A stretch of DNA of 64,000 nt from Chitinophaga pinensis. Lineage in GTDB: Bacteria > Bacteroidota > Bacteroidia > UBA4408. Position numbers and translations under genes: made by a program. Shown here one piece after another: positions 7,888 through 55,509 of this stretch (the stretch's first letter is position 1; each line of letters starts with the position of its first letter). The stretch covers positions 334,403 through 398,402 of the forward strand of contig CAMAVS010000001.1 in NCBI GenBank assembly GCA_945861665.1. The letters are read 5' to 3'. The notes beneath the pieces were generated by a model. The model was not told where the DNA came from. It worked only from the letters and a program-made list of their open reading frames with translations, and did no database searches.

Positions 7888-10800
7888 TTATTTGCCGCCA
7901 GTTAAATTTTTTGCTTCATCAATTGTAATTTGTTTACCATCCTTGTAAGCAACCACAAAAGCTTCACCCAATCCCTTTTCAATAACTTCTACTTTTGTAG
8001 TGTTTGCAGATGCAAAATCAACATAAGCACCAACTGAATAAATTGTAGTGCCACTGCTAGTTTGGTAATGCTCTACACCTTTGTTGATTATTTCAAAATA
8101 AATAGCAGCTACATTATTTGGTACATCTTTGTTGTATTCACCAATGTTTACTTTGTACACCACTCCATTTATAAATACAGATTTAGGTACTGCTGCTATC
8201 TCAACCACATTTTCTGTTTTAACAATATCAGGCGAAGGAATATTTTCTGCTACTTTCTTTTCCTCTACTTTATTTTCAATCGCAAGTTGCTCAACAACAA
8301 TCTTTTTATTTTCTGCTGTTTTAACAATATCAGACGAAGGAATATTTTCTGCTACTTTCTTTTCCTCTACTTTATTTTCAATCGCAAGTTGTTCAACAGC
8401 AGTCTTTTTATTTTCTGGCGAACTAATAACTGGATCTTCTTTTTTAGGAACCAGAGTATTAGCATTTATATCAAAACTAGCAATTTTTGTGCTGTTGTTT
8501 GTATTGTTCGGCATTTGATTGATAGTAGAATAATTCACAAAAATTTCATTTCCATTTTGTTCAGTTAACTTTCGTGCCTCGCCAGTTGTAATACGTTTAC
8601 CATTATAGTATGCAGTAACAAAAGCATCTTTTACTCCGAAGCCCACTAAATTTTTCTTAGCTATTATTGCAATTGCTTCGCTATTAAAAATACCAGAACT
8701 ATATCTATAATAGCCATTGCTAGTTTTTTCAAAATACAAAGGTTGTATATTGAACAATTGGGATGATTTAACAGGATTACCATATACGCCCACTTGAACA
8801 GTGTACACTAAGCCCTTCACTTGCTCAAATGTAACTGCAGCAGCTTCTCCTTTGCTTTCATCCGTATTTGATTTTAATTCTACAACCGTTTGATTTATAT
8901 TATTTATAGGAGGCGTTACAGTATTGCTGTTTTCTTTACCAATATTGGAATTATTGGTAACAGCAGTATTACTATTTTGCGAATTCGTATTACTACTATT
9001 ATTATTTGCCAATTGTTTTGAAGCAGTGATCGCTTGTCCGTTACAATCTCTTCCATCACCAATCATTGCTTTTGCCTCTTCAATGTTTATTCTTTTCCCA
9101 TTGCAATATGCTACAACAAATGCATCTTTATAACCAATGCCATTAATTTCTTTTCTCACAGCATTCGCTGCATCAAATATTTTAAAAATACCGGCAGTAT
9201 AACGTGTGATACCGGACGCTGTAGTCTCACCCATTACTGGTGCAAAATCCTTAAATAACTCTTGTGGAATAGGGTTTCGGAATGCTCCAATTTGCACTTT
9301 AAAAACAAGCCCCTTTGGTAACTTATCATTTATGGGAATAGGGTTCTTTTTACTGTAAGCAGGGACTATTTTCTTTTCAAATACTACCTCTTGGGTTAGC
9401 TCGTTATTTTCATTTACAACTTGTGAAACAGATAACACCAGGGCATTGTTTGATTTAGAGTTTGTATTTGCAGCATTGGTTGCATTCGAAGTATTTGTAT
9501 TGCTTGCCACTGAATTACTTTCATTTGTCGCATTATTCGCTTTATTTTCCTTTACAGAAGAGTTATCGGTTTGTTTGTTTAAAGTATTAACCGCATTGTC
9601 TGTTGCAGTATTCTGGTTATTCGAGTTATCCGCTAAAACACTTTTCTCTTTATATGCTTCTGCTTGCTTTACTTTGTTTGCCGTTGCACCATCTAACTGA
9701 TTCAAATATTTCTGCGCTTCCTCATTCTTGCTTACAGCTTGTTTTGTTGCAGTTTCAGCTAACATATTTGTTGAATCTGATTTCTGCGAATTTCTTTTTG
9801 ACGATTCATCGTATACTTTATATTTACGCAACTCTTCTATAGAGTATACAATTTTACCCGTATCAACATTTATTTTAGCAAAACCTAATAATTCTTGAGA
9901 GAAACGTTGCTCGCTTTCCGCTTGTGTTTTAAAATTATCTGCTTGCTTACGCTGTACCGTACTTTCTTGTTTCAATTTATCTGCATCACTCTTCAACAAT
10001 GCATAATTGATATAATCTGATGACTTAATAACAAAATTATACTCTTCTTCACTTAGGCTGCTGTTGATTGTTGTCCCGATAACTAACGGAAGCTCTTTGT
10101 TCATTGTTGGTTGTTCATTATCCTTTACAACATTTGCAACATCAGCATCTTTATTTGTTTTAGTTTGACTGGGATTTTGCGAATTGTCAGCCAAAACATT
10201 TGTATCTGCATTCTTATATATTGCATAAGTAGACGCTTGTTTATCAAGTGCTATTTTTTCATATTCAGCAGCTCTCTCCAGTATCTTCTCCTTTTCCACA
10301 TCATCATTAGAGGCTGAAGCAATCGTTCTCAATTTAGCGGCTTCGTTATTATAATAATCAGCTTCTGTGTTTACTACAACAGCCCTTGAAGCATAATCAC
10401 TATTAGGATTGGATTTTGCCATATCAGCAATCACAGAAGCATTGTTTTTGTATTGCAACTGATTAGCAGTAGACAACGTTTCATACGCCTTCACATTCCT
10501 AACTTGTGCCTGTCGAGCAAATACTTGTGATTTATTATACATAGCAAACTTTTCATCCTGTACTTTTGAATTTTGTGCTTCAAGTTTTAAGGAATCTGAT
10601 TGTTTTTTATAATCCGATGCTTGTTTGAATTGCTCATTAGCAATAATTGCTTGCGCTGATGCTTCCGGCAAACCATATTTACTGCTATTAGTGGATATGG
10701 TTTTAGATTTTGCCTCAAGCCTGGATTGCTCAGCAATAGCAGCTGTTCTTTTTAACTCAGGAATTTTTTCTTTGCTTTCATCAACGGTAGTTAATTTTTC

Positions 10801-13800
10801 TTCTTGCTGTGATTCTAGATCAGCTATCCTTTTTGTAATCTCTTCTTTAACTTTTTTCTTCTTTGTTTTTTCGAGTAGTTCCTTTTGTTTAATTAAATCA
10901 CTATAAATTGCTTTTGCCCATTGCTCATTTAATTCTATTTTTTTGTTTTCTTTTGCAATTGGATCGGAGATTAAATCCACATCCTCTAACTGCTTAGAAT
11001 AATTTGAATTGTAATCTGCAACTTCAGTCCCACCATTTCCATCCTTGTTCTTAGCCTCCTCTTTCTCCAATGCTTTTACCGACTTATTACCTGCATCTGC
11101 CAGTTCTTGCTTTTCATTTTCAGCACTCTCAAGCTCTTTTACTTTTGTTTTTAATTCAGCTTTTTCTGTTTTATTCGAACTTAACTTTGCTTGTTTATTC
11201 AAAGCATTAATGTCTACCTTTAAAGATTCTGCCCAATTTGCATTCACCTCAGCCATCTTCTTCTCTTTCTCTAACTCTGATATTTTTGCCAAATTAACAT
11301 CGTCTAATTGCTTTTGATAATTTACATTATAATCAGTAGAAACTATATTCGATTTATTTTCACTCGCATTCGTTGATGTTCCATTATCAACTTTCCCATT
11401 TTGGGCATTCGGGTTAACCGCATTATCTTTATTAGTATTCGTATTGCTTTGAGATGGATTATTCACCGAATTATCTGTCAGTTGATTTGAGCTAGTGTTG
11501 TTTGTTTTTGAATTTGCATTATCCTTGCTTGCTGTCTCCTGTTTCCCATTTTGACTCTCGTACTCAGCAATTTGTTTGGCCAATTTCTGTTTATCGACCT
11601 CATCCATTTCTTTCGAAGTATTATCTGGAGTATTATTCAAATTGCTTACTACCTGCACTATAATTTGCGATTGTTGTTGCAACTCATCTGCCTCTTTGTT
11701 TAATCTTACTGCATTCCATTTTAATTTAACAGATTGCTCCTGCCGTTGCTTTTTATCGTCATTCAGTTCGGCCAGCTGATTTAACATTGCACCTTTTACT
11801 TGTTCATCTTTGGATGCATCTGCTTGCTTCTTTAAATCAGCCGCTTCTAAATCCATATCCCTCGCTTGATTTTCTAACTCAACCGCTTTATTGCTATCCT
11901 TTTCTGCCTCTTTCCTTTTTGCATCCGATTGTTGTTGCATAACCACAGAAACATTATCAATGCTCGACTTTTTAATTTCTCCCTTTTCAATTGCTGCTTG
12001 TTGCTCATTTAATTTAATGATGGATTCTTTTGAATTAGATTTAATCGCTATATCTAACTCACTTGCATATTTATCGGCATCTCTCGCTTCTTTTTGCTTT
12101 TGATCGGCATTCGCTTCTAAATCCTTTGCTAAATTATACGAGACAATTGCCTGTTGTGCACTTTGCTTCGACTCCTTTTCCAATTGATTCGCCTTGTCTA
12201 ACTCCGCTTGCTTTTGTATTGGATCGTTAAAAGCATTTGCAGCTTGTTTTATTTCTTCTGATTGTTTTGCTTTGTTTTGCGACTCTTCGTTTTTAATATT
12301 TGAGTACGTAAATGCCTCGTCCGACTGATCTTGTGCCGCATCTGCTTCACGTTGAGCATCCTTTGCATCGTTTTTTGCCATTTTAACCAAATCTTCGTTG
12401 GTTAAATTTTTACCTATTGTTCCACCCTTACTATTGGTATTATTTTCGGCTGATGAATTATTTGCATTTGAAACATCTGAGAATTTGTTAGTTTCTTTTT
12501 CTTGAATGCTATTAGTGTTATTTTGATCACTCTCTTTTACTAAATTATTTTCCAATTCTTCGGTGTAATTAACATCCAAATTTGCCTTTTCACGAATGAG
12601 CGCAATGCCTGCTTGAAAAGTTTCTTCATCCACCGTAAAATCGTCAAAATTGTTATAGATACTAAGCTTATCTATGCCATTTTCCTTTTTCATATTTATT
12701 TTTTGCTTCAGTGGACGAATAGTTTGTTGCTCAGGAATATCAACCAATACACTTTGAGCTATGAAGCCATCTGTTTCAACTGTAAACAAATATTTAGCGC
12801 CACTTGGCACATTCACGATATAGGTTCCTGTTTTTTCGCTGCTATTAAAGACCCCTACCAATTTATTATTAGAAGCATTTTTTACGATAATTTTAGACTT
12901 AGGATGAACCCCTTCATCATCTGTAGTATAAAACTTACCCTTAATCAATGCTGTAGTTACAGCTAGTCGTCCAACTTTTATTTTATAAACACCTATGTTC
13001 CCATCAACACTTCCTCTTCGGGAGGAAAAATAAGCTACTTCGTTGGAAGTATCAGGAATGTACAATAAGTCATCATCAGGAGAACTGATCGGAAAATCCA
13101 TATTAACCGGATTGCTCCATTGCTGAGACCCTTCATTGTAAACCGATTTAAAGACATCATAACCACCAATACTATTATGTCCTTTCGAACAAAAGTAAAG
13201 GGTTTTATTCTTTTCGCTGAAATAAGGATAATCCTCATCATAGGAAGTGTTAATTGTCGTTCCTAAGTTCTGCGGTATGCTAAATTCACCATTGGGTGTT
13301 TTTTTGATTCGAAATATTTCTTTCCCATTTTTATCGTTATCACCATAACTTGAAATATACAAATCAGTTGTTTTCGGACTTGATACTAAAACTGATTCTT
13401 CACTCTTCTTCTTGTCGGTAGATGTTTTAAAATCATCGGGCTTTACAATTAATTTTGAATCTATGAGTCCTAAATCATAGGCGCGAAAATATTCGCTCAT
13501 TGCAAGATCCTTCTTTTGCATAACAACCAAATCCTTCACATTTTTCAGCAATTCCAATCCGTTGTTACACATTTCAATTTGCCTATCCACTTTTAATTTT
13601 GTCAAGAACTTAGTGGATGCTTTTTTCTTATAAACATTGTATGCTCCAATTGCATCACTAAAACGGTAATTAACGTGATAAGCACGACCTAAGTAATAAA
13701 ACACCTCATTATCCACAACTTCAGGCTTTTTAGAAGCAAACTCCAAGAAAGCAATCGGTTTTCCCTTATCTGCATCTGCAAAAAGGATACAAACTCCGTA

Positions 13801-14010
13801 TTTGTAATTAAAATTGGGATCTTTAGGATATAAACTCAGTAATTGTGAGTACAAAGGCATTGCCTTAACAAATTGATCTTCCTGATAAAATTTCTCGGCT
13901 TGTTTTTTTACTTCTTCTTCAGAATCATAATTCTGTGCAGGCACAAAACCACACGACAGCATTAAAACCGTATATATAACAAGTATGGAGGTGAGTTTTT
14001 TATAACTCAT
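7888..14010 (-). CDS. Giant envelope protein: TPR, PD40 propeller, coiled coil, three SPOR-like domains
   Basis: The 2040-residue product starts with a signal peptide; LMLSC could be a lipobox. Then follow TPR-type helices (about 35-115), PD40/WD40-like propeller blades (about 225-350, e.g. DEDYPYFSEKNKTLYFCSKG and NEVAYFSSRRGS) and a carboxypeptidase-regulatory-like beta domain (about 355-440). A very long Ala/Lys/Glu/Gln-rich coiled-coil region interrupted by Asn/Ser-rich linkers runs from about 540 to 1550. Three related SPOR-like modules (about 1565-1645, 1733-1813 and 1950-2033) each have VxxVQIGxxxNP and DAFVVAYxNGKRI-type motifs. The N-terminal order recalls the T9SS-linked PorE family, but I see no OmpA domain. 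Peptidoglycan binding by the SPOR-like modules is inferred. Confidence 0.85.
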   Translation of the reverse strand: MSYKKLTSILVIYTVLMLSCGFVPAQNYDSEEEVKKQAEKFYQEDQFVKAMPLYSQLLSLYPKDPNFNYKYGVCILFADADKGKPIAFLEFASKKPEVVDNEVFYYLGRAYHVNYRFSDAIGAYNVYKKKASTKFLTKLKVDRQIEMCNNGLELLKNVKDLVVMQKKDLAMSEYFRAYDLGLIDSKLIVKPDDFKTSTDKKKSEESVLVSSPKTTDLYISSYGDNDKNGKEIFRIKKTPNGEFSIPQNLGTTINTSYDEDYPYFSEKNKTLYFCSKGHNSIGGYDVFKSVYNEGSQQWSNPVNMDFPISSPDDDLLYIPDTSNEVAYFSSRRGSVDGNIGVYKIKVGRLAVTTALIKGKFYTTDDEGVHPKSKIIVKNASNNKLVGVFNSSEKTGTYIVNVPSGAKYLFTVETDGFIAQSVLVDIPEQQTIRPLKQKINMKKENGIDKLSIYNNFDDFTVDEETFQAGIALIREKANLDVNYTEELENNLVKESDQNNTNSIQEKETNKFSDVSNANNSSAENNTNSKGGTIGKNLTNEDLVKMAKNDAKDAQREADAAQDQSDEAFTYSNIKNEESQNKAKQSEEIKQAANAFNDPIQKQAELDKANQLEKESKQSAQQAIVSYNLAKDLEANADQKQKEARDADKYASELDIAIKSNSKESIIKLNEQQAAIEKGEIKKSSIDNVSVVMQQQSDAKRKEAEKDSNKAVELENQARDMDLEAADLKKQADASKDEQVKGAMLNQLAELNDDKKQRQEQSVKLKWNAVRLNKEADELQQQSQIIVQVVSNLNNTPDNTSKEMDEVDKQKLAKQIAEYESQNGKQETASKDNANSKTNNTSSNQLTDNSVNNPSQSNTNTNKDNAVNPNAQNGKVDNGTSTNASENKSNIVSTDYNVNYQKQLDDVNLAKISELEKEKKMAEVNANWAESLKVDINALNKQAKLSSNKTEKAELKTKVKELESAENEKQELADAGNKSVKALEKEEAKNKDGNGGTEVADYNSNYSKQLEDVDLISDPIAKENKKIELNEQWAKAIYSDLIKQKELLEKTKKKKVKEEITKRIADLESQQEEKLTTVDESKEKIPELKRTAAIAEQSRLEAKSKTISTNSSKYGLPEASAQAIIANEQFKQASDYKKQSDSLKLEAQNSKVQDEKFAMYNKSQVFARQAQVRNVKAYETLSTANQLQYKNNASVIADMAKSNPNSDYASRAVVVNTEADYYNNEAAKLRTIASASNDDVEKEKILERAAEYEKIALDKQASTYAIYKNADTNVLADNSQNPSQTKTNKDADVANVVKDNEQPTMNKELPLVIGTTINSSLSEEEYNFVIKSSDYINYALLKSDADKLKQESTVQRKQADNFKTQAESEQRFSQELLGFAKINVDTGKIVYSIEELRKYKVYDESSKRNSQKSDSTNMLAETATKQAVSKNEEAQKYLNQLDGATANKVKQAEAYKEKSVLADNSNNQNTATDNAVNTLNKQTDNSSVKENKANNATNESNSVASNTNTSNATNAANTNSKSNNALVLSVSQVVNENNELTQEVVFEKKIVPAYSKKNPIPINDKLPKGLVFKVQIGAFRNPIPQELFKDFAPVMGETTASGITRYTAGIFKIFDAANAVRKEINGIGYKDAFVVAYCNGKRINIEEAKAMIGDGRDCNGQAITASKQLANNNSSNTNSQNSNTAVTNNSNIGKENSNTVTPPINNINQTVVELKSNTDESKGEAAAVTFEQVKGLVYTVQVGVYGNPVKSSQLFNIQPLYFEKTSNGYYRYSSGIFNSEAIAIIAKKNLVGFGVKDAFVTAYYNGKRITTGEARKLTEQNGNEIFVNYSTINQMPNNTNNSTKIASFDINANTLVPKKEDPVISSPENKKTAVEQLAIENKVEEKKVAENIPSSDIVKTAENKKIVVEQLAIENKVEEKKVAENIPSPDIVKTENVVEIAAVPKSVFINGVVYKVNIGEYNKDVPNNVAAIYFEIINKGVEHYQTSSGTTIYSVGAYVDFASANTTKVEVIEKGLGEAFVVAYKDGKQITIDEAKNLTGGK
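8221..8424 (-). repeat. Two-copy 102-bp in-frame tandem repeat
   Basis: Positions 8221-8322 and 8323-8424 are near-identical copies encoding a 34-residue unit (VEQLAIENKVEEKKVAENIP at its core). The repeat lies in the linker between SPOR-like modules 2 and 3 of the giant envelope protein. The low divergence points to a recent duplication. Confidence 0.92.
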
Positions 14011-14059
14011 AAATGCCTTCTATTTCTTAATTTAAAATAATGACTAAACCCTTAACTCA

Positions 14060-14067
14060 CAAATGTA
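14060..14067 (-). promoter_or_regulatory. Candidate -7 box for the giant envelope gene
   Basis: On the minus strand this reads TACATTTG, matching TAnnTTTG, 50 nt before the ATG at 14010. No TTG is found at a good distance upstream, so the assignment is weak. Confidence 0.35.
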
Positions 14068-14139
14068 ATGATATTAGTTGATTTTATGTAACCTAATCAA
14101 ATTCTATTTAAAGATACAAAAAAGAATGATTTTCCATAA

Positions 14140-14167
14140 TTGTGGCAAGTAATACGATTTAACTTTG
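14140..14167 (+). promoter_or_regulatory. Promoter of the Sua5/TsaC gene
   Basis: TTG at 14140-14142, a 17-nt spacer, and TAACTTTG at 14160-14167 match the Bacteroidota promoter consensus. The box ends 15 nt before the ATG at 14183 and contains the rival in-frame start at 14165, which can therefore be dismissed. Confidence 0.7.
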
Positions 14168-14182
14168 TATATCTTTGGATCT

Positions 14183-14803
14183 ATGTTATTGCACCTAAAC
14201 GAAAAAAATATTGATAATAGTTCGATCAGAAAAATAACAGAATGCTTAGCTGATGGAGGCGTTATCATTTACCCTACCGATACAGTATATGGAATGGGAT
14301 GTGATATCCATAAAATGAAAACTGTAGAACGAATTTGTAAGCTTAAAAACATATCTTCAGCAACAGTGAATTTTTCATTTATTTGTTATGACTTAAGCCA
14401 CATTTCCGACTATACTAAATCATTGGAAACACAGGTGTACAAACTGATGAAAAAGACCCTGCCGGGTCCTTTTACATTTATTTTAGAATTAAACAACAAA
14501 GTACCCATTTTTTTTAAAAGCAAAAAGAAAACCGTTGGAATTCGCATACCAAACAATACCATTTGTAGGCAAATAGTAAAAGAATTGGGCAATCCAATTA
14601 TGTCAACTTCTATTCACGATGAGGACGAAATCATTGAATATACCACCGACCCTCAGTTAATTTATGAGAAATACAAAGACAAAGTAGACATAGTAGTTGC
14701 AGGGGGATATGGCCATAATGCAGCATCTACTGTAGTAGATTGTACCGAAGGTGAATACACCATCCTTCGACAAGGAATGGGAATACTTGAAGAATATTTA
14801 TAA
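14183..14803 (+). CDS. L-threonylcarbamoyladenylate synthase (Sua5/YciO/YrdC family)
   Basis: The product (206 residues) makes threonylcarbamoyl-AMP from threonine, bicarbonate and ATP for the t6A37 modification of ANN-decoding tRNAs. The YrdC signature is present: GGVIIYPTDTVYGMGCD, the LPGPFTFILE block and VGIRIPNN. It is a single-domain protein without the C-terminal Sua5 extension. The start at 14183 is set by the promoter position. A repeat-rich protein gene follows after 11 nt. Confidence 0.9.
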   Translation: MLLHLNEKNIDNSSIRKITECLADGGVIIYPTDTVYGMGCDIHKMKTVERICKLKNISSATVNFSFICYDLSHISDYTKSLETQVYKLMKKTLPGPFTFILELNNKVPIFFKSKKKTVGIRIPNNTICRQIVKELGNPIMSTSIHDEDEIIEYTTDPQLIYEKYKDKVDIVVAGGYGHNAASTVVDCTEGEYTILRQGMGILEEYL

Positions 14804-14814
14804 ACGAAAACATA

Positions 14815-15708
14815 ATGAGTAAGAAAATTAAAACGATTACAATTTTTAAAGAGGTAAAATTAGCCGGAATTGATGCAAAAGAATCATTGTCAATGCTCCA
14901 GGAGCTCGACAGGAATAAAAATATAATTCGTGAAGTCCATTATTCGGATGAAGAAGAGGAGCAGGTAACTGAAACCAGCTACAATGAAAAAGGACTTGTT
15001 GTTCGCGAAAAAGTTCATTTTATCATTGATGATTTAAACGAAGAATTAGTCATAGAATACAACGGTGCCAATAAAAGAACAAAAGAAACAAAAGCTTACA
15101 ATGGTGCAGTACAAGAAATAAAAACACGTGAATACGATGCAAACAATAATCTAATAAAGGGTATTTTATCTGATGGTGATGGAGAAATGGAAGAATACGA
15201 TACCTATGAATACAATGAACATCAAAAGGTTATATCCTATAAAAGATTCAACTACGAAAACAAAGTAATACTGAAATCGGATGTATTATATAACGATGAA
15301 AAAGAAGTAATAGAAGAAAACCGTTGGAGTAAAGAAGATGGTGAAACTAAAATACTTTTTGATACTATAATAAAAGATAAGTCACCCGATTCAACAGCAT
15401 ATAACAAAGAAGGTAAAATTACACACCGTGTAAGAAACACCTATAATGAAAAGAGACAATTGGAAAAAGAAGTTGTTGAATCGACCATTGGCGGCTTACA
15501 AAAACTAACTACCTATTATACATATAATGAGGATGGAAAAATTACAGAAACTCGCAACTTGGATGGAAAGGAAACATTGCTTAAACAAACAAGCTTTTTG
15601 TACAATGAAAACGGGAATATAATTACCGAAACACTTTACGAAGACTTGCCAAATATGGCTTCAACGAATATTAAATTGAGGTACGAGTATGAATTTTATG
15701 AGGACTAA
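14815..15708 (+). CDS. Cytosolic protein with YD/RHS-like short repeats
   Basis: The 297-residue protein has no signal peptide or membrane segment and is highly charged. From about residue 55 it carries about nine degenerate repeats of the type (Y)N-E-x-G-x-I (SYNEKGLV, TYNEDGKITE, LYNENGNIITE and others), spaced about 20-35 residues apart. The pattern resembles the YD/RHS or MORN class of beta-hairpin repeats. No catalytic or toxin domain is visible. It starts 11 nt after the Sua5/TsaC gene and is probably cotranscribed with it. Its stop overlaps by 4 nt the stop of the convergent gene at 15705. Function is unknown. Confidence 0.8.
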   Translation: MSKKIKTITIFKEVKLAGIDAKESLSMLQELDRNKNIIREVHYSDEEEEQVTETSYNEKGLVVREKVHFIIDDLNEELVIEYNGANKRTKETKAYNGAVQEIKTREYDANNNLIKGILSDGDGEMEEYDTYEYNEHQKVISYKRFNYENKVILKSDVLYNDEKEVIEENRWSKEDGETKILFDTIIKDKSPDSTAYNKEGKITHRVRNTYNEKRQLEKEVVESTIGGLQKLTTYYTYNEDGKITETRNLDGKETLLKQTSFLYNENGNIITETLYEDLPNMASTNIKLRYEYEFYED

Positions 15709-50661: not shown

Positions 50662-53382
50662 ATGGAGAACAACATTATTTATTTAGCTCCCGCATTAGGG
50701 ATTTTAGGATTGATAGTAATGGCAATAAAATCGGCTTGGGTTAGTAAGCAAGATGCTGGGGATAAAAACATGCAAGAACTTGCCGGCTATATAGCTGATG
50801 GGGCAATGGCATTTCTAAAAGCAGAGTGGAAAGTACTCAGCATTTTTGTGGTTTTTGCAGCTGCGTTATTAGCCTATTCAGGAACTATCCACGAAATCAA
50901 TGGAAGAGAAATTCATGGAAGTTGGATTATAGCAGTGTCTTTCATCTTAGGAGCTATTTTTTCTGCTACTGCTGGATATATAGGGATGAAAGTTGCTACT
51001 AAAGCAAACGTTCGTACAACTCAAGCTGCTAAAACAAGTTTAAAACAAGCATTGAAGGTTTCTTTTACCGGTGGAACTGTTATGGGATTAGGTGTTGCGG
51101 GATTAGCAGTGTTGGGTTTAGGTGGCTTATTCATAGTTTTCTTAAAAATATTTAATGTTGTTAATGTTGATAGCAATGAAATGAAAACTGCTATTGAGGT
51201 ATTAACAGGATTCTCTTTGGGGGCAGAGTCAATTGCATTGTTTGCTCGTGTAGGTGGAGGAATTTATACAAAAGCAGCTGACGTTGGTGCTGATTTGGTT
51301 GGTAAAGTAGAGGCAGGTATTCCTGAGGACGATGTTAGAAACCCTGCAACTATTGCAGATAATGTAGGAGATAACGTAGGTGATGTAGCGGGTATGGGTG
51401 CCGATTTATTTGGTTCTTATGTGGCAACAATTCTTGCAACAATGGTATTGGGACAAGAAATTGTTTTAAAGGATAATTTTGGTGGAATGTCCCCAATCCT
51501 TTTACCAATGGTTATTTGTGGATTAGGAATTGTGTTCTCAATTGTTGGGACTTGGTTCGTTACTATAAAGGATGAAAAATCGAATGTTCAAACTGCATTG
51601 AATCTTGGTAATTGGGCTTCAATGTTAATTACTGTTGTTGCATCCTATTTTATTGTAATGTATATGTTACCAGAAGGAGATATTTCTTTACGTGGTATTG
51701 TATTTACAAAAATGGGCGTGTTCGGTGCTATTTTAGTTGGAACTGTAGTAGGTGCAATTATGAGTATTGTAACTGAGTATTATACTGCAATGGGTAAGCC
51801 TCCAGTAAATTCTATTATTCAGCAATCTTCTACCGGTCACGCTACAAACATAATTGGTGGCTTAGCAGTTGGTATGAAATCAACCGTTATTCCAATTTTA
51901 ACGTTGGCAGCTGGTATTATGGGTTCATACTATTGTGCAGGATTATATGGTGTAGCAATTGCTGCAGCAGGAATGATGGCAACTACTGCTATGCAATTAG
52001 CAATTGACGCTTTTGGCCCCATTGCAGATAATGCAGGTGGTATTGCTGAAATGAGTCAATTACCTCCTGAAGTTCGTGAGCGTACTGATAATTTGGATGC
52101 TGTAGGTAACACAACAGCTGCAACAGGAAAAGGATTTGCTATAGCTTCAGCAGCACTAACATCATTGGCATTGTTTGCTGCCTTTGTTGGAATTGCGGGT
52201 ATTGATGCAATTGATATTTACAAAGCTCCTGTATTAGCAGGTTTATTTGTAGGTGGAATGATTCCTTTTATTTTCTCTGCCTTGTGTATTCAGGCTGTAG
52301 GTAAAGCTGCAATGGACATGGTACAAGAAGTACGCAGACAGTTTCGCGAAATTCCGGGAATTATGGAATACAAAGCAAAACCTGAATACGAAAAATGTGT
52401 TGCTATTTCTACCAAAGCATCTATCCGTGAAATGATGATGCCGGGTGCTATAGCATTAATTACTCCTGTAATTGTTGGATTTGTTTTCGGACCCGAAGTA
52501 TTGGGAGGTTTACTAGCAGGTGTAACAGTATCAGGTGTATTGATGGGAATTTTTCAAAGTAACGCAGGTGGTGCTTGGGACAATGCCAAAAAATCATTTG
52601 AGAAAGGTGTAATGATTAACGGTGAAATGTTTTACAAAAAATCAGAGCCACACAAAGCATCTGTAACAGGTGATACTGTCGGTGATCCATTTAAAGATAC
52701 CTCCGGACCATCAATGAATATTTTAATTAAATTAATGTCGATTGTATCCTTGGTAATTGCTCCATACATTGCTGTTAATAGCAGTGAATCAACTAATGAA
52801 AATGGAAAAACTACCGTTACAGTTGTAACAATGGTTGATTCAAATGCGGTTAAATTACCAAACTTGGCTGAAGTAAAATCAGAATTAGTATTGGATAAAT
52901 CGCATTCATTTGTTGAATTTTCTATCAAACATTTACTTACCAATTCAAAAGGAAGTTTTGCAGTTGATAGTGGGTATTTGAATATGACAGGGGATTTAGC
53001 TACCTCTACTATTTATCTTGAAATTGATGTTAAATCAGTAAATACTAAAAATGAAGACAGGGACGAGCACTTAAAAAATGCAGATTTCTTTGATGCAGCG
53101 AAATACCCTACTATGAAATTCGTAGCGAATACAATTCAAACTTCGGATGGAAGATATAAATATAAGGCTATTGGTGATCTTACTGTTAAAGATGTGACTA
53201 TGCCAATTGTGTTGTCTTTTAACTATGCAGGTGAAATTGAAAATCCAATGAGTAAGTCTATGGCCTATAGTTTTGAAGGTATCTTTAGTATTAATCGCGT
53301 TGATTTTCACGTTGGTGATGCTAGCCCGATGGTAGGAAATGATGTAACAATTAACTTCTCTGCTGAGGCATATAAAAAATAA
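50662..53382 (+). CDS. hppA: Membrane ion-pumping pyrophosphatase with C-terminal YceI domain
   Basis: The protein couples PPi hydrolysis to H+ or Na+ export. Residues 1 to about 715 are an M-PPase with some sixteen membrane helices and the catalytic loops EAGIPEDDVRNPATIADNVG, DAFGPIADNAGGIAEMS and DNLDAVGNTTAATGKG. The Ala in GNTTAATGKG marks the K+-dependent type. After the last helix (about 685-705) a ~35-residue linker leads to a complete YceI domain (about 740-906: LDKSHSFVEFSIKHL, DRDEHLKNADFFD, IGDLTVKDVTMPIVL). M-PPase C-termini face the periplasm, which is where YceI proteins normally work. The total of 906 residues is far above the usual 670-770. The pumped ion cannot be told with certainty. 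Confidence 0.95.
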   Translation: MENNIIYLAPALGILGLIVMAIKSAWVSKQDAGDKNMQELAGYIADGAMAFLKAEWKVLSIFVVFAAALLAYSGTIHEINGREIHGSWIIAVSFILGAIFSATAGYIGMKVATKANVRTTQAAKTSLKQALKVSFTGGTVMGLGVAGLAVLGLGGLFIVFLKIFNVVNVDSNEMKTAIEVLTGFSLGAESIALFARVGGGIYTKAADVGADLVGKVEAGIPEDDVRNPATIADNVGDNVGDVAGMGADLFGSYVATILATMVLGQEIVLKDNFGGMSPILLPMVICGLGIVFSIVGTWFVTIKDEKSNVQTALNLGNWASMLITVVASYFIVMYMLPEGDISLRGIVFTKMGVFGAILVGTVVGAIMSIVTEYYTAMGKPPVNSIIQQSSTGHATNIIGGLAVGMKSTVIPILTLAAGIMGSYYCAGLYGVAIAAAGMMATTAMQLAIDAFGPIADNAGGIAEMSQLPPEVRERTDNLDAVGNTTAATGKGFAIASAALTSLALFAAFVGIAGIDAIDIYKAPVLAGLFVGGMIPFIFSALCIQAVGKAAMDMVQEVRRQFREIPGIMEYKAKPEYEKCVAISTKASIREMMMPGAIALITPVIVGFVFGPEVLGGLLAGVTVSGVLMGIFQSNAGGAWDNAKKSFEKGVMINGEMFYKKSEPHKASVTGDTVGDPFKDTSGPSMNILIKLMSIVSLVIAPYIAVNSSESTNENGKTTVTVVTMVDSNAVKLPNLAEVKSELVLDKSHSFVEFSIKHLLTNSKGSFAVDSGYLNMTGDLATSTIYLEIDVKSVNTKNEDRDEHLKNADFFDAAKYPTMKFVANTIQTSDGRYKYKAIGDLTVKDVTMPIVLSFNYAGEIENPMSKSMAYSFEGIFSINRVDFHVGDASPMVGNDVTINFSAEAYKK

Positions 53383-53465: not shown

Positions 53466-54080
53466 CTATTTAACAATCGTAATTCTCTTATTAAGTACTT
53501 CTGTACCATTCGACATTTTAATAAAATACTCCCCACTATATAAGGTTTTTGTATCAAAATAAGCAATAGTACTACCCTGAAATAAAATTGTATTTTGTAC
53601 CAATTGTCCTTTTACATCGTACAAATCAATATATATATTTTCTTTGGTTAAATGATTCACCTGAATAACCACGAGGTCGCTCGAAGGATTAGGAAAAACA
53701 GTAACATTTATTCTTTCGTTTACATTATCAGAAACAAACGAGGGTATATATGTTGAAACAGCCTCGCCTATAGAAGCAACATTCGCAGCACTTTTAACCC
53801 CATAAAAAGTAGGACCTACTACATATGGATAAGCAGAATTCCAATTTTGATCAACAGTAGCAAAGTAACAATATATACCACTTGGGTATTCAGGTGTTAC
53901 ACAAAATCTACCATTGTGTTCATCTAAATAATCAGAATTCACAGTAGGAATATATTCATAATCTTCTCTAAAATATCCTATAGGATAGGTTGCATTCACT
54001 GCCGGACCGGGAGTAACAATTGTTCCATCGGCATATTGAGTTCTGGTATTAATATTGCGTTTATTGTAGCTCGATTTCAT
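53466..54080 (-). pseudogene. 5'-truncated YHYH protein with T9SS type A sorting domain
   Basis: The 204 residues match the C-terminal half of YHYH proteins: MKSSYNKRNI, TPGPAVNATYPIGYFREDYEY, LDEHNGRFCVTPEYPSGIY and AYPYVVGPTFYG. A T9SS type A tail follows (VTVFPNPSSDLVVIQV...KRITIVK). The signal peptide and the YHYH motif itself are missing. The first ATG is an internal Met of the original protein. It overlaps the truncated MbnH-like gene by 4 nt. Without a signal peptide it cannot reach T9SS, so it is probably dead. Confidence 0.8.
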
Positions 54081-54811
54081 ACGTTTCTTCCGTAATCGTT
54101 CAGTGTTGTGTCAACAGGCAATCCATTGTTCTCAAATTGAAGATTGGTAAACAACGGTTCAGTATGACAGGAAGAACATTTTTTTTGAAACAAAATATAA
54201 CCATTGTTTTGCTGAACAGTAAAGTTAGTAAGCTTGCGCATCACACTATCGTATTTTGAGTTTGCACTCACCAAGGTCAGCAGAAATTGAGATATTGCTT
54301 TCAGTGTATGCTCCCCTGTAATGATACTGTCATTAAATGCAGTAAAAAATAATTTAGAATAAACACTTGAATGTTGCAATTTTGCTACCACATTTGCTAT
54401 ACTTTCTCCCATTTCATTGGAATGACTAATGGGTGCTAATGCTTGCATATCCAATTGATTGATTGCTCCATCCCACATAAATGTTTTATACCAAGCTAAA
54501 TTCATTAATGCAGGTGAGTTGCGTGTACCTACTTTATCGTCAATGCCGTGACTCAATGCATGATCAACGTGTGTAAATGCAGTATACTGTGAATGACAAC
54601 TTGCGCAGGAGATGCTGCCATTTCGTGAAAGAATGGGGTCATAAAAAAGCTTCCTACCCAATTCTATTTTCTTTTCAGACAAAGGGTTTTTCGAAAAATC
54701 GTATTGCGGAACAGGAAAATTATCAGGTTTGTAAAAAAGAGTTTGAGTACGAATAACAAAAGCAAATGATACAAAACAAGCAATTGAAAATAGAACTACT
54801 GCTTTTTTCAT
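54077..54811 (-). pseudogene. 3'-truncated di-heme cytochrome c peroxidase, MbnH-like
   Basis: The 244-residue product has a signal anchor, the CCP/MauG start (NPLSEKKIELGRKLFYDPILS), and both heme sites: CASCH at 69-73 and CSSCH at 212-216. It then stops abruptly after LNDYGRNV, about 90 residues before the normal end, losing the segment with the last heme ligands. The break coincides with the start of the YHYH remnant. Upstream is its MbnP-like partner. MbnH enzymes oxidise a Trp of MbnP to kynurenine; this copy is unlikely to be active. Confidence 0.82.
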
Positions 54812-54813
54812 TT

Positions 54814-55509
54814 TTACTCGACCCTAAAAATTTCAACCGCCTTTTCGGAAAGCGATACTGCTTGCTTACTAGGCGACATTATTTGATTTTGTTGCGACAA
54901 ATCTATGCTCTCTATAAAATTCTTAATATCTAAAACTATATCTACCTTTTTATTTTCCTCCACTTTTAATATCACTTTTTGCAATGCATTGAATGGATAT
55001 TGATAACCTCCTAAATGAAATTGAAATGCATTGTTTCGCGATTTACACACATTACTCCGCCCCTCTAATTTTAAATTGACATAGCCGCTTTGCCAAGTCC
55101 AGTACATTCCTTTTGTTGGATCTAAATCACCTCCCATTGCACCCGAAACATTGGTAAGACTATCAATGCCTAAATTAAACCTTATTGTATTGTAAATAAT
55201 ATTAGAAGCTCCCGCAATGACAATTGTTAAGGATTTATCGTCTGCAAAATCAATTAAATGAAAACTATTTTCTTCCTTCCATACAATTTTATCATCCTTT
55301 AGTAATTCAATTGCAGAAATATAAAATTTAAACGCTTCAATTTGTATACTATCACCTTTGCTCAATGTATAAAACAAATTGTTCGGGGTGAGAATTGAAT
55401 TGCCAAACATTGGATGGAATACAATTGATGTTTTTTGTTCAGTCTGTGCAAGTGCCAGGAATGATTTAAAAGCAAAAATTAAAAGAATAAAAACGCATCT
55501 TAATTTCAT
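54814..55509 (-). CDS. MbnP-like copper-binding protein
   Basis: With the start at 55509 (MKLRCVFILLIFAF) the protein has 231 residues and a signal peptide to ALAQ. The MbnP family pattern is clear: PNNLFYTLSKGDSIQIEAFKFYIS, HLIDFAD, GDLDPTKGMYWTWQSGYVN and FHLGGY. The Trp-rich GMYWTWQSGY block includes the position modified in methanotroph MbnP. It lies 2 nt before the MbnH-like gene. Periplasmic copper handling is the inferred role. Confidence 0.85.
   Translation of the reverse strand: MKLRCVFILLIFAFKSFLALAQTEQKTSIVFHPMFGNSILTPNNLFYTLSKGDSIQIEAFKFYISAIELLKDDKIVWKEENSFHLIDFADDKSLTIVIAGASNIIYNTIRFNLGIDSLTNVSGAMGGDLDPTKGMYWTWQSGYVNLKLEGRSNVCKSRNNAFQFHLGGYQYPFNALQKVILKVEENKKVDIVLDIKNFIESIDLSQQNQIMSPSKQAVSLSEKAVEIFRVE

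Follow-up and report, generated by a model that had tools for sequence, protein, structure and literature searches.

Gene layout and the joint between mbnH and yhyh

The window, a stretch of 64,000 nucleotides, contains on its minus strand three genes in the order mbnP, mbnH and yhyh, of which the last two are truncated. The features of this locus are the following:

54814..55509, minus strand: mbnP, an intact MbnP-family gene (PF20243, 153.4 bits, profile positions 2-189 of 189)
54077..54811, minus strand: mbnH remnant of 244 aa, ending in ...LNDYGRNV* (TIGR04039, profile positions 3-203 of 336)
54083..54086, minus strand: putative deletion joint, placed by aligning its codons one by one with those of 74 mbnH and 53 yhyh homologues
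53466..54080, minus strand: yhyh remnant of 204 aa, starting with MKSSYNKRN (PF14240, positions 125-187 of 193; PF18962, positions 1-75 of 75)

The probable start of mbnP is the ATG at 55509, although the mechanically called ORF begins earlier, with a TTG (55563). In the mbnH frame, family sequence continues up to Gly-Arg242 (Arg codon at 54088-54086), after which come Asn-Val and the stop at 54077; an earlier note on this DNA had described a peroxidase frame that runs to LNDYGR and ends after two foreign residues, and both the ORF and the profile match proved this description exact. Its reading of the next frame as starting from an internal Met (MKSSY) of a YHYH protein was likewise confirmed, as evidenced by the correspondence of the start codon at 54080 to an internal Met of full-length YHYH proteins and by a PF14240 match confined to the end of the profile. 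The codon preceding this Met specifies an invariant Arg (CGT, 54083-54081) and is the first yhyh codon to be retained.

Comparison with full-length relatives placed the last mbnH base at 54086 and the first yhyh base at 54083, which narrowed the interval of 54077-54097 originally proposed for the joint. Just two A's (54085 and 54084) lie between the two parts, and each can be attributed to one side: to mbnH as the first base of ATG or ATA, the commonest next codons, and to yhyh as the third base of GTA or ACA, which are common preceding codons. As judged from the homologues, the nearest being only ~70% identical, microhomology at the joint amounts to at most ~1 nt, and a search of the region for direct repeats of at least 12 nt yielded none. 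A deletion that caused a frameshift would explain why mbnH stops two residues past the joint. The ATG of yhyh and the TGA of the mbnH frame form an ATGA overlap (54080-54077), and this stop-start arrangement is a by-product of the deletion's frame. A repeat-mediated deletion through the Arg-Met-Lys codons present near the joint in both genes was rejected, since recombination of this kind would keep the frame and does not explain the AACGT found between GGAAGA and ATGAAA.

Elsewhere in the window, on the plus strand, a gene for an HppA membrane pyrophosphatase (50662-53382, 906 aa) has a complete YceI-like domain as its in-frame continuation. A similar HppA-YceI fusion occurs in two other Bacteroidota genomes (L129, L130), and Cys-rich tails take the place of the YceI-like domain in L131 and L132. 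No paper on the fusion was found in the literature searched.

Conservation of the cluster among relatives

Using MbnP as the query and one genome per species, we collected 80 loci, 79 of which carry mbnH. The mbnH product reaches its C-terminus in all 75 uncut homologues, the other four running off contig ends; chance cannot explain the truncation in the window, since none of these 75 is truncated. Directly after mbnH, yhyh is found in 39 of the 79 loci; in 15 it lies further downstream and in four upstream of mbnP, which shows that the mbnP-mbnH cluster of Bacteroidota often includes yhyh as a third gene. The interval that is missing here measures 1,054-1,359 bp in relatives (median 1,108 bp; 35 measurable loci). 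The relatives closest to the source genome that were available for comparison are at the family level, none being of the same genus, and the mbnH homologues most similar among genomes of that family (G002, G003, G006, G007) all extend to the C-terminus.

The intact three-gene order was found in many relatives, including the two nearest, L003 and L006, in which mbnP, mbnH and yhyh are adjacent and 1,185 and 1,202 bp, respectively, occupy the interval at which the window has two bases. The cluster of L003 (CANJUD010000002.1), a Bacteroidota metagenome-assembled genome, resembles that of the window in gene order and strand, with 58%, 70% and 66% identity for mbnP, mbnH and yhyh over the retained parts, and the identity of 66-70% is sustained right up to the joint. 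It differs in that its mbnH (335 aa) and yhyh (453 aa) are full-length, in the 1,185 bp that the window does not have and in its unlike flanking genes. The same short forms of mbnH and yhyh were sought in the examined loci and, contig ends aside, were absent.

These comparisons support the proposal of the earlier note that one deletion between neighboring mbnH and yhyh genes gave rise to the present arrangement, and we consider it probable that a single event of ~1.1-1.2 kb within the mbnP-mbnH-yhyh cluster produced both truncated genes. Starting from an ancestor with the common Bacteroidota arrangement of the three genes on one strand, the deletion would have taken the 3' part of mbnH and the 5' half of yhyh together with the short spacer between them. 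Near-blunt joining between two Arg codons (54086/54083) would then have led to the frameshift that ends mbnH two residues on, and MbnP would have been left intact beside the broken mbnH and yhyh. Two independent truncations, or an older rearrangement in which more sequence was lost, could in principle be envisaged from the loci in which yhyh lies further downstream (15/79) or upstream of mbnP (4/79) and from those relatives that have genes in between; however, mbnH and yhyh are adjacent in L003 and L006, and a near-blunt joint of in-order remnants requires just one event, such that we regard this history as very unlikely.

It was also considered whether the cell harbors intact mbnH and yhyh genes, the joint being an artefact of the assembler or of a minority strain in a mixed sample. 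The assembly comprises 13 contigs and may derive from such a sample, and remnants free of decay, as found here, would also be expected from such an error. Assemblers, however, collapse across repeats, whereas the two sides share only ~1 nt at the joint and the region has no direct repeat of at least 12 nt; moreover, the joint lies deep within a long contig, and the missing 1.1 kb was not found on the remaining contigs, the genome being rated 99.79% complete. When the lost parts were searched for in the genome itself, that of yhyh gave no match, and the sole match to that of mbnH was a different MauG-like gene on contig C6 (45%). An assembly error is unlikely, because there is almost no shared sequence at the joint and next to nothing in the way of leftover pieces on other contigs.

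Within L003, positions 8001-15496 encode on one strand MbnP, MbnH, YHYH, a secreted protein, a second YHYH protein, an Lcl_C-domain protein and a HupE/UreJ-type membrane protein. This composition suggests that L003 has a more extensive locus for metal handling at the cell surface, with no more than its first three genes remaining in the window.

Content and condition of the remnants

The mbnH remnant retains the N-terminal CCP_MauG domain (PF03150, 168.7 bits, profile positions 2-146 of 149) and both CXXCH heme-attachment motifs, at residues 69-73 and 212-216, with ~70% identity to L003 and L006 over residues 3-242. Against TIGR04039 it scores 136.8 bits, below the NCBIfam cut-off of 362.85, as does the intact L003 orthologue at 211.3. 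The C-terminal ~93 residues (~28% of the protein) are gone, and with them 22 columns at which at least 97% of the homologues agree. Among these losses are PYMHDGR (268-274) and His284-Tyr285 (L003 numbering), motifs that are invariant in 74/74 relatives. With respect to the di-heme enzymes BthA and MauG (PMC6405878; PDB 6e1c, 3l4m), a full-length relative can be aligned with BthA almost from end to end, whereas the remnant ends ahead of the segment aligned with the distal-ligand region of the second heme. The column of Tyr285 holds Tyr in BthA and Met in cytochrome c peroxidases, and the six-coordinate heme is bound by Met and His in peroxidases and by Tyr and His in BthA and MauG (PMC6405878). 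Our reading of the aligned columns is that Tyr285 marks the putative distal ligand of the second heme; aligned columns were used here since the published BthA ligand numbers (His371, Tyr463) gave inconsistent alignment offsets. The remnant would therefore be unable to function as a di-heme enzyme, having lost the invariant PYMHDGR and His-Tyr motifs, including the column aligned with that ligand.

The yhyh remnant consists of only the last third of the YHYH domain (PF14240) and, behind it, an entire type IX secretion sorting tail. It aligns to residues 247/248-453 of the full-length L003 protein, and its identity to L003 and L006 is 66%. The signal peptide and the first ~247 residues, including the NYHHHQNP motif, were lost together with 82 conserved columns, leaving the remnant without the full YHYH domain and its His-rich motif. 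Since the signal peptide is gone, the YHYH remnant is presumably not exported.

Mismatches at family-conserved columns number 2/77 in the mbnH remnant and 0/48 in the yhyh remnant, which is within the range of intact homologues, and the codon-position bias of both lies inside their 5-95% range. Pseudogene decay of the remnants was considered on these measures and rejected, as neither conserved columns nor codon position distinguishes them from intact homologues. Since the remnants are open and undecayed, the deletion either is recent on the scale of the divergence from the nearest known relatives or is an assembly error.

The same features could be taken to indicate functional mini-proteins, namely a truncated heme protein and a translationally coupled C-terminal part of YHYH, in that both frames are open, conserved residues are retained and stop and start overlap in ATGA. 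We find this highly improbable: neither short form has a counterpart in the examined homologues, contig ends aside, the YHYH part has a type IX secretion tail yet no signal peptide, the MbnH part is without motifs that no relative dispenses with, and the overlap needs no explanation beyond the frame in which the deletion joined the genes. The event is probably an ordinary gene-disrupting deletion of recent date.

MbnP beside a broken partner enzyme

The genome contains one copy of MbnP, and its sequence shows 0 mismatches at the 32 columns that are at least 95% conserved among homologues. Against TIGR04052 it scores 40.6 (cut-off, 140). A full-length second enzyme of the MbnH/MauG type (379 aa), which keeps PYMHDGR, is encoded at an unlinked position on contig C6 (G000:C6). 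Its gene (L128:6395-8280) overlaps that of a 249-aa protein that matches no Pfam family, and no MbnP gene adjoins it. The claim that MbnP remains intact held, with the whole of PF20243 covered; the further claim, that it is thereby left without a modifying enzyme, is plausible but not established, given the second enzyme on C6.

In the MbnP/MbnH pair of methanobactin producers, and in MopE/SACCP and CorA/CorB of methanotrophs, a secreted partner likewise adjoins a MauG-like di-heme enzyme (PMC3621798, PMC3912023). A Trp residue at the copper site of MopE and CorA is oxidised to kynurenine, for which the adjoining enzyme is suspected (PMC3621798, PMC3912023). The Bacteroidota MbnP and MbnH proteins, even when full-length, fall far below the cut-offs of TIGR04052 and TIGR04039, and the partner enzyme in the window is broken. 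That the MbnP of the window is a substrate of its MbnH in the first place is a proposal drawn from distant homologues. M. alcaliphilum tolerated losing its equivalent of this peroxidase gene, and the partner has been suggested still to bind copper (PMC3912023).

MbnP in the present genome may be unmodified, may be served by the second MbnH/MauG-like enzyme or may be heading to decay. That it still works without a dedicated MbnH, whether in unmodified form or with the unlinked enzyme acting in trans, is a tentative idea that we rate as unlikely; if true, it would provide a natural knock-out of the pair. In a survey of 149 genomes of the class, MbnP was present in 108 and YHYH in 52, and a literature search found no paper linking YHYH with MbnP.

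The locus represents a clean, well-bounded case of gene loss by deletion and, if real, a natural mbnH/yhyh double knock-out beside an intact mbnP. The frequency of yhyh in the cluster also gives a hint that this uncharacterised secreted protein acts in the same pathway as MbnP and MbnH, and such a shared pathway may perhaps be one of copper handling at the cell surface.
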